DNA from: Blattabacterium cuenoti
GTDB lineage: Bacteria; Bacteroidota; Bacteroidia; Flavobacteriales; Blattabacteriaceae
DNA length: 64,000 bases
Assembly: GCF_014252455.1 (NCBI RefSeq)
Contig: NZ_CP060245.1
Location: 427,234 to 491,233 of the forward strand
Direction: 5' to 3'
The position numbers and the translations under genes were made by a program. Positions within the stretch are counted from its first letter, which is position 1, and each line of letters opens with the position of its first letter. Under the pieces are notes generated by a model. The model ran no database searches. It was not told the origin of the DNA and saw nothing but the letters and a program-made list of their open reading frames with translations. Shown in pieces: positions 31,848 through 38,644 of the stretch.

Positions 31848-32488
31848 TCAAAAAATTTTTAAAAATTTAATTTTTTTTTTAAAAAAAAATAAAAAAATTA
31901 AACCAATAAATATTATAAAATCAGAAAAATTAAAAATTGGTTTAAAAAATTTAAAATGATATCCTCCAAAAAAAGGAATATAATGAGGGACATAAGTATC
32001 TATAATAGGAAAATAAAACATATCGACAACACATCCCTCCATAAATGAAGCATATCCTTTTAAAAAAAAATTAATTTTAGAAATCCCTGTATAAGAAATC
32101 CATTTATGAGTATTTTTATTATAAATAGTTCCTATATCAAATAATAAACCATATAAAATACTATCTATTAAATTTCCTAAAGAACCTGAAAAAATAAAAC
32201 TAATAGGAATTATAAAATAATTAGAAGTTTTTTTTTTGATATGTTTATATAAAAAAATAGACATATATATAATACTAAAATTAAACGAAAAATACTTAAT
32301 AAAATTTTTCCAAAATATCCAGGAGCTATATAAAACCCATAAGCCATTCCAGGATTTTCTATAAAAAAAATCCAAAAAAAAGGAAAAATATAAAAACTAC
32401 TCCCTAATTCAAAATGAGTTTTTACATAAATTTTTAAAAATTGATCTATTATTAAAAGAGAAAAAATAAGGAAGAAAATTTTTTTCAA
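31848..32488 (-). CDS. lspA: Lipoprotein signal peptidase, frame-shifted at an A10 run
   Basis: LspA removes signal peptides from prolipoproteins in the inner membrane. The gene is in two overlapping frames. The first (start ATG 32488) encodes the N-terminal helices and FIENPGMAYGFYIAPG, then stops soon after an A10 run (32228-32237). The second frame continues TSNYFIIPISFIFSGSLGNLID and carries both catalytic-aspartate motifs, GNLIDS and VVDMFYFP. One extra A in the run joins them into a 213-residue protein of normal length. As the genome stands, the first product lacks the active site. Either it is a recent pseudogene, or slippage by RNA polymerase makes enough full-length mRNA. The conserved second half argues for function. 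Confidence 0.85.
32228..32237 (-). repeat. A10 run causing the lspA frameshift
   Basis: Ten As on the coding strand. The upstream frame reads ..S-K-K-K then leaves the LspA sequence; the downstream frame resumes at K-K-K-T-S-N-Y-F. Eleven As restore one continuous frame of 213 codons. Confidence 0.85.
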
Positions 32489-32521
32489 AAAAAATTATTT
32501 TTATTTTATTGATAAAAATAA

Positions 32522-32609
32522 ACACTATTTCTTTTTTAAAAAAAATTATTTATAATTAATTATTTTTCTAATAAAAACATACACTATTTCTTTTTTAAAA
32601 AAAATTATT
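32522..32609. repeat. Direct repeat from a 59-bp partial duplication at the ileS 3' end
   Basis: An identical 29-base sequence occurs at 32522-32550 and again at 32581-32609, offset by 59 bases. The second copy lies in the last ileS codons and the first copy covers the ileS stop codon and downstream spacer. It looks like a small tandem duplication at the gene end. Confidence 0.75.
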
Positions 32610-36070: not shown

Positions 36071-38644
36071 ATGCATAAAAATTCAAATAAAAATTTGAAA
36101 AAAAAAACAGAAGATACTCCATTAGTAAAACAATATAATAAGATTAAATATAAATATCCAAATACTATTTTATTATTTCAAGTTGGAGATTTTTATGAAA
36201 CTTTCGGAGAAGATGCAATAAAATCTTCTAAAATATTAAATATTGTTTTAACTAAAAGAAATAATAATAATAAATCTATTCCTTTAGCAGGATTTCCTTA
36301 TCATTCTTTAAATAATTATTTACCAAAATTGATACAATCAGGACAACGTGTAGCTATTTGCAATCAATTAGAAAAACCTCAAAAAGGAAAAAATATAGTA
36401 AAAAGAGGTGTTATAGAATTAGTTACACCTGGAGTAACTATTACTGAAAATATATTAGATTTTAAATCAAATAATTTTTTAGCATCTATTCATTTAGATA
36501 AAGAAAAAATGGGTTTAAGTTTTTTAGATATTTCTACAGGAGAATTTTTTATAGCAGAAGATAATAAAACAAATATTTTACAATATTTAAAACATTTTAA
36601 TCCTAGTGAAATTATTTTTCAAAGAAAAGAAAAAAAATTTTTTGATAAATTTTTACAAAAAAAATATTATACTTTTCTTATGGATGATTGGATGTTTAAT
36701 TATTCATTTGCATATGAAAAATTAATATCTCATTTTAAAACTCATTCTTTAAAAGGGTTTGGTATAAATCATTTAAAATTAGGAATTATAGCATCTGGTG
36801 TTATATTAAATTATTTAGATGAAACTCAACATTTTCAATTAAAACATATTACTAACATTAAACAAGTTAATCACAAAAAACATATGTGGATTGATGATTT
36901 TACTTTTCGTAATTTAGAAATATTTAATTGTTTTAATTCCAAAGGTCTAACTCTAATTAATATTTTAGATAAAACCATCACTTCTATGGGTGGTAGATTA
37001 TTGAAACAATGGATTCATTTTCCATTAAAAAATATTTATGCTATACAAAAACGTCATAAAATAGTAGAAGAACTTTTATCAAATATTCATATTCTTCAAT
37101 ATATACAAAAAAAATTAAAAAAAATTTCGGATATAGAACGATTAATATCTAAAATGGTTATTAAAAAAATTTCTCCAAAAGAATTAATTACATTATATCA
37201 ATCTTTAAAATCTATTGTAAAAATAAAAGAAAAAATTTTTTCTACAAAAAAAAAAAATTTATTACACATAGTTAATTATTTGATGGATTGTGATATTATA
37301 TCTCAAAAAATTATTAAAACTATACATGAAGATCCTCCTCATAATATTGAAAAAGGGAATATTATTATTAAAGGGTTTTCTAAAAAATTGGACAAAATTC
37401 GTTTTATATTTTTTTCTAAAAAAAAATTTTTAGAAAAATTATGTTATAATGAAAAAATTAAAACAGGTATTCATAATTTAAAAATTAGTTATAATAATAT
37501 TTTTGGATATTTTTTTGAAATTAAAACAAAAAAAGTATTTAAAATACCTTCCAATTGGATTATTAAACAAACATTAACTAATTCTAAAAGATATACAAAT
37601 GAAGAATTAAAAAATTATGAATTACAAATATTTAATGCTGAACAAGAAAGAATATCTTTAGAAAAAAAAATATATTATAATTTAATAGATGATTTATTAA
37701 ATTATATTTCTCCTTTACAAAAAAATGCAAAAATTATTGCAAAATTAGACGTACTATGTTCATTTTCTACTTCTGCATTAGAAAATAATTATATTAAACC
37801 AAAGATGAATAATTCTTTTGATTTAATTATTAAACAAGGAAGGCATCCTGTAATTGAAAAACAATTTATTTCTAAAATATCTTATATTCCTAATGATATT
37901 TTTTTAAATAAAAAAAATCAACAAATTATAATAATAACTGGTCCAAATATGTCTGGAAAATCTTCTATTTTACGTCAAACTGCAATTATTATATTAATGG
38001 CTCAAATTGGAAGTTTTATTCCAGCGAAATATGCTAAATTAGGAATTATAGATAAAATATTTAGTAGAGTTGGAGCTTCTGATAATATTTCTTTAGGTGA
38101 ATCTACTTTTATGGTAGAAATGAATGAAACAGCAAGTATATTAAATAATCTTTCTAAAAAAAGTTTAATTATTTTAGATGAAATAGGTAGAGGAACAAGC
38201 ACTTATGATGGAATTTCAATTTCTTGGTCTATTCTTGAATTTTTACATAATCATCATTTTAAACCTCTTACTTTAGTTTCTACTCATTATCATGAATTAA
38301 CTAAAATAAATTCTTTTTTAAAAAGAATTCATAATTATCATATTTCTATAAAAAAAATTAATGAAAATATTATTTTTATGAGAAATCTTGTTATTGGTTC
38401 CAGTGAACAAAGTTTTGGTTTTCACGTAGCTAAAATTGCTGGAATTCCTTTAAAAATAATTTGTAGAAGTAAAGAAATATTAAAAATCTTAAATAAGAAA
38501 AATGAAAACAAAATACCTTTATCTAAAAAAAAGATTTTTTTTTTATTAAAAAAAATAAAATTTTATATAAAAGATAAAAATTATTTATCTTTTATGGATG
38601 CATATATAAAAATTAATAAAATAAAAGAATTATTAAATAATTAA
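36071..38644 (+). CDS. mutS: DNA mismatch repair protein MutS
   Basis: MutS recognises mismatches and small loops and starts repair. The 857-residue protein shows the mismatch-probing Phe-x-Glu motif in QVGDFYETFGEDA, the connector and clamp domains, Walker A GPNMSGKSS, DEIGRGTSTYDG with the Walker B residues, and STHYHEL. Length is normal. A complete MutS is interesting in this genome because loss of mismatch repair would speed up homopolymer frameshifts, which are seen elsewhere in the window. It ends one base before tRNA-Gly(GCC), so the tRNAs are likely made from the mutS transcript. Confidence 0.96.
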   Translation: MHKNSNKNLKKKTEDTPLVKQYNKIKYKYPNTILLFQVGDFYETFGEDAIKSSKILNIVLTKRNNNNKSIPLAGFPYHSLNNYLPKLIQSGQRVAICNQLEKPQKGKNIVKRGVIELVTPGVTITENILDFKSNNFLASIHLDKEKMGLSFLDISTGEFFIAEDNKTNILQYLKHFNPSEIIFQRKEKKFFDKFLQKKYYTFLMDDWMFNYSFAYEKLISHFKTHSLKGFGINHLKLGIIASGVILNYLDETQHFQLKHITNIKQVNHKKHMWIDDFTFRNLEIFNCFNSKGLTLINILDKTITSMGGRLLKQWIHFPLKNIYAIQKRHKIVEELLSNIHILQYIQKKLKKISDIERLISKMVIKKISPKELITLYQSLKSIVKIKEKIFSTKKKNLLHIVNYLMDCDIISQKIIKTIHEDPPHNIEKGNIIIKGFSKKLDKIRFIFFSKKKFLEKLCYNEKIKTGIHNLKISYNNIFGYFFEIKTKKVFKIPSNWIIKQTLTNSKRYTNEELKNYELQIFNAEQERISLEKKIYYNLIDDLLNYISPLQKNAKIIAKLDVLCSFSTSALENNYIKPKMNNSFDLIIKQGRHPVIEKQFISKISYIPNDIFLNKKNQQIIIITGPNMSGKSSILRQTAIIILMAQIGSFIPAKYAKLGIIDKIFSRVGASDNISLGESTFMVEMNETASILNNLSKKSLIILDEIGRGTSTYDGISISWSILEFLHNHHFKPLTLVSTHYHELTKINSFLKRIHNYHISIKKINENIIFMRNLVIGSSEQSFGFHVAKIAGIPLKIICRSKEILKILNKKNENKIPLSKKKIFFLLKKIKFYIKDKNYLSFMDAYIKINKIKELLNN

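Follow-up and report, generated by a model that had tools for sequence, protein, structure and literature searches.

A probably recent frameshift beside an A10 run in the sole lspA gene of a Blattabacterium genome, and its possible rescue by slippage

Blattabacterium, a member of the Bacteroidetes, lives inside the cells of cockroaches. LspA (signal peptidase II) is an enzyme needed for the maturation of lipoproteins. In the genome studied here, a single contig of 608,467 bp for which Blattabacterium cuenoti is the nearest named match, with 70% identity in IleS, the lspA gene is interrupted by a frameshift close to a run of ten As. The locus thus raises the question of whether a gene broken in this way can still yield the enzyme. 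We addressed it within a window of 64,000 nucleotides, which is the whole stretch of DNA analysed, and by comparison with other Blattabacterium genomes. lspA lies on the minus strand, flanked by ileS and a tRNA cluster, and a search of the whole genome returned no second copy, so a functional lspA elsewhere was rejected. In relatives, a DksA/TraR zinc-finger gene (dksA), present in 28 of the 49 genomes, sits directly 5' of lspA; it is absent from the present genome, where only a short spacer (window 32489-32545) separates ileS and lspA. A degenerate tandem repeat of about 27-60 bp (32481-32605) runs across the 3' end of ileS and the region upstream of lspA.

The gene is read in two frames rather than in a single open reading frame. 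The 5' part (32213-32488, minus strand) encodes 92 amino acids from a TTG start codon (32488), which is common to the lspA genes of relatives, to a stop codon at 32210-32212. The 3' frame is open over 31848-32396 on the same strand, ends at the stop codon 31848-31850, and is homologous to the relatives from about 32261-32275 down to that stop; 184 nt (32213-32396) are open in both frames. Each half alone passes the curated cut-off of 25 bits for Pfam Peptidase_A8 (PF01252), with 43.2 and 45.5 bits, which bears out the sequence-only reading that each frame holds half of a conserved LspA, except that both catalytic aspartate motifs fall in the 3' half and not one in each. Their codons lie at 32163-32165 (GNLID) and 31920-31922 (FNFSD), and the pair (GNxxD, FNxxD) could be aligned to structure 6RYO by an alignment profile; a phmmer search of the PDB with the 3' piece alone gave no match at 0.01. 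The locus resembles characterized signal peptidase II (PF01252; structures 6RYO, 5DIR and 9EMZ) in that both halves match the family and both motifs are present, and differs from it in its interrupted reading frame. Judged from the sequence, the 92 residues encoded by the 5' frame can have no enzyme activity of their own, because both catalytic Asp codons sit in the 3' frame. Besides this one break, no further stop or frameshift was found in lspA.

The ten As are present as claimed, on the minus strand at 32237 to 32228 (T10 on the plus strand), and an eleventh A would indeed yield one frame of 213 codons. The run codes for the loop between transmembrane helices 2 and 3, helix boundaries being the only use made of an AlphaFold model of a relative's LspA, which is of low confidence (mean pLDDT 45.6), and it is the candidate slippery site for any rescue. 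A second A10 run (31871-31880, minus strand) is in frame near the 3' end of the gene; slippage there would alter the C-terminal tail only.

The comparison across Blattabacterium shows how exceptional this arrangement is. A Peptidase_A8 match is found in all 49 genomes, including one of only 511 kb, and in each of the 48 others lspA reads through without an internal stop. The present genome alone yields a pair of partial matches, each in a frame of its own, and no related strain or species shares the frameshift (1/49 genomes affected), there being no close sister among them. The frame break is confirmed as real at the level of the sequence and as unique among the 49 genomes.

The length of the gene bears on where the break lies. 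The interval from a conserved Arg codon (CGT) to an Asn codon (AAT) measures 63 nt in 44 of the 48 relatives and 65 nt here, so that lspA is two nucleotides too long rather than one short. A frameshift-aware alignment to a profile of the 48 relatives places the change at 32263, and among edited readings of the gene the profile scores highest with two bases removed at 32262-32263 (344.1 bits), followed by a run shortened to A8 (337.9 bits) and one extended to A11 (335.6 bits). A nucleotide HMM aligns the A10 run without gaps and puts the two inserted bases at 32267-32268, within the TATATATA repeat (32264-32271, minus strand). A maximum-likelihood scan on the 49-taxon tree returned many equivalent sites for a single +2 insertion across 32238-32275 (minus strand), that is, 1-38 nt before the run, with differences in log likelihood mostly within 3 of the best. 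In the same scan a +2 change within the run (A8 to A10) was rejected, being 8.9 log units worse than the best, whereas an A11 run combined with removal of a TCA codon, which is equivalent to one A lost from the run after gain of that codon, came within 0.45 log units of it. The loss of one A from the run would thus fit almost as well as the best single event, but only with an earlier in-frame codon gain in the lineage. This competitive history and the several equivalent sites weaken the TA repeat upstream of the run as the sole clear site of the lesion.

The length and likelihood tests favour an upstream insertion of two bases over a missing A in the run, and on parsimony we lean slightly towards the upstream position; the run is kept as a candidate site because such runs are known to be unstable. 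Two claims of the sequence-only reading are affected. The ten As cannot be taken as the exact meeting point of the halves, given the 184-nt overlap and a homology that favours a net +2 nt located 1-38 nt 5' of the run, and a lesion consisting of one missing A is not the one that these tests favour. The run itself is an inherited feature of the gene: relatives carry A3 to A12 in frame at this position and also code for a Lys-rich loop there.

Several observations suggest that lspA is still needed. Read in frame, as the rate comparison assumes, the gene has a relative-rate ratio of 1.26, where 49 genes of the window have a median of 1.21, and its pN/pS contrast equals the median of the window genes (1.28 in both cases). 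With 0.21 substitutions per site, the terminal branch of the present lineage is a long one, the eighth of 49 by rank, and therefore a lesion that was old relative to the branch, and unrescued, should have been joined by others. The ordinary rates and the lack of further lesions led us to reject relaxed selection or an old pseudogene, and the frameshift is probably recent. Lgt, the enzyme that acts before LspA, is encoded by an intact gene in 49/49 genomes, so loss of this partner was likewise rejected, and the sampled part of the genome encodes two predicted lipoproteins that are conserved in one relative (G018). Lipoprotein maturation, and hence the LspA enzyme, therefore seems to be still needed, and because of this some full-length LspA is probably made.

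Our favoured reading, to which we give a probability of roughly 45%, is that the sole lspA of this genome carries a real, lineage-specific and recent frameshift of net +2 nt, and that some full-length LspA is probably produced through slippage at the A10 run. The change would have arisen either as a two-base insertion at most about 38 nt before the run or as the loss of one A after the lineage's codon gain. RNA polymerase would then add an A at the run in part of the lspA transcripts and so restore the frame; alternatively, the ribosome may slip back by one base on A-AAA-AAA. The rescued LspA would differ from that of relatives by one additional residue in the loop and by a few residues where helix 2 ends. 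The run is suitably placed in that it precedes the out-of-frame stop, in the phase where the frame would be restored by one added A or by a ribosomal slip of -1. For random +2 lesions in this genome, the next stop follows after a median of 19 nt, and a run of at least ten As precedes the stop in about 1.3% of cases. A lesion in the run makes this placing automatic; with a lesion upstream the placing is coincidental, and survival by slippage would account for the coincidence. A slippery heptamer, A AAA AAA in the zero frame, is present at the run (TCA AAA AAA AAA CTT), and no downstream stem-loop that might stimulate programmed -1 ribosomal frameshifting was better than in shuffled sequences (z +1.0). 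Thus, rescue of lspA as proposed earlier agrees with its genus-wide retention, its ordinary rate, the retained lgt and lipoproteins and the phase of the run, while the part that put the lesion in the run is not favoured by the length and likelihood tests. Such rescue is possible and, if it takes place, would be a further instance of a phenomenon already known. A more specific version, that slippage at the inherited A10 run corrects from a second site an indel up to about 30 nt upstream and so keeps an essential-type membrane protease working in a Bacteroidetes endosymbiont, we hold to be unlikely.

Among the alternatives, the one that survives best, although we consider it rather improbable, is that lspA is an early pseudogene without rescue, so that the gene has just been lost and lipoproteins are left unprocessed or the function has become dispensable. 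Other genes found in relatives are already missing from the window, dksA beside lspA is gone, long A/T runs abound in the coding sequence, and a study of Buchnera saw no transcriptional restoration of frame (PMC5574713). Against such a loss stand the retention of lspA in 48 of 48 other genomes, the 511-kb genome included, the intact lgt, and a rate that is not relaxed in a gene with no second lesion.

Under an error of assembly or sequencing, the likeliest being an A11 run called one A short, the true gene would be intact and one codon longer than in relatives. Homopolymers are the classic site of such errors, and the A11 reading with the TCA codon as a gain fits nearly as well as the best single-event reading. 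We nevertheless regard an error as unlikely: it requires an in-frame length change that 44 of the 48 relatives are without, and the long runs of this genome are otherwise well behaved. When a relative's genes were scanned against the window and a further 180 kb of the genome (244 kb, of which 227 kb are coding), only two interior frameshifts were found, in lspA and, beside an A11 run, in a cysJ-like gene. The 227 kb of coding sequence hold 163 A/T runs of at least ten (up to A18), an unusually high number when 259 kb of a relative hold about 48, and all but two of the genes holding them are in frame, from which the error rate is at most about 1% per run. Systematic miscalling of homopolymers is unlikely for the same reason, the lspA and cysJ genes being the only frame-broken ones among the 163 coding runs. 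Loss of mismatch repair is not supported as the cause of the lesion, as the frames of MutS (36071-38644) and MutL are open.

The cysJ-like gene, for a sulfite reductase flavoprotein, lies at positions 369585-371233 of the genome on the minus strand. It also gives two separate halves in two relatives (G029 and G035), and only its C-terminal part was matched in at least seven others (G006, G008, G009, G014, G026, G037 and G038); the flavodoxin part of cysJ seems to have been lost or separated repeatedly.

Finally, it is very improbable that LspA is put together from two parts, the 92-residue N-terminal piece and a C-terminal piece whose translation could begin at an ATG (32264-32262). The break does fall near the boundary of helices 2 and 3 in the low-confidence model, and the 3' frame has this ATG as its opening just where the break lies. 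However, nothing points to initiation there, the cut falls inside the distal part of helix 2, and none of the 48 relatives has a split lspA.

Rescue of the lspA frameshift by slippage at the run would have precedents in other symbionts. Frameshifted genes at poly(A) tracts of Blochmannia and Buchnera were reportedly described by Tamas et al. in 2008 and by Wernegreen et al. in 2010. The slippage that the sequence-only reading invoked in these symbionts has indeed been reported: corrected transcripts at comparable runs amount to 12-50% in aphid and ant symbionts (PMC5009743), and Blochmannia vafer has eight genes frameshifted at poly(A) tracts (PMC3017870). The analogy is tempered, however, because Traverse and Ochman, working transcriptome-wide, found no frame-restoring transcription errors in Buchnera (PMC5574713). 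The present case is like the Blochmannia and Buchnera genes in the AT-rich genome of an insect endosymbiont, in one frameshift beside a long A run and in a conserved gene that is otherwise intact and evolves at a normal rate. It is unlike them in that the lesion may precede the run by as much as 38 nt, that no sister species shares the frameshift, that the symbiont belongs to the Bacteroidetes and that the case is known from the DNA sequence. Long-term maintenance, which provides the strongest evidence in Blochmannia and Buchnera, is absent here because the frameshift occurs in one genome without a close sister. In Citrobacter rodentium tssM1, too, a long A run is closely followed by a stop that +1 slippage can bypass, at 20-25% on an A11 run (PMC4256274). 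The Citrobacter system differs in that it requires both lengths of the protein and has been measured in RNA and protein. A literature search returned no paper titled on lspA in Blattabacterium, and for 'Blattabacterium' with 'transcriptional slippage' the papers were titled on other symbionts.

In the event of an error, or of a freshly formed pseudogene, the case is one of ordinary genome decay. If the favoured reading holds true at the RNA level, slippage-tolerated frameshifts would be extended from the symbionts among the gammaproteobacteria to Blattabacterium, and genomes packed with long A runs could carry a frameshift in a gene that every relative keeps. Should second-site correction also be true, many inherited poly(A) loops in such genomes may be able to buffer nearby frameshifts.
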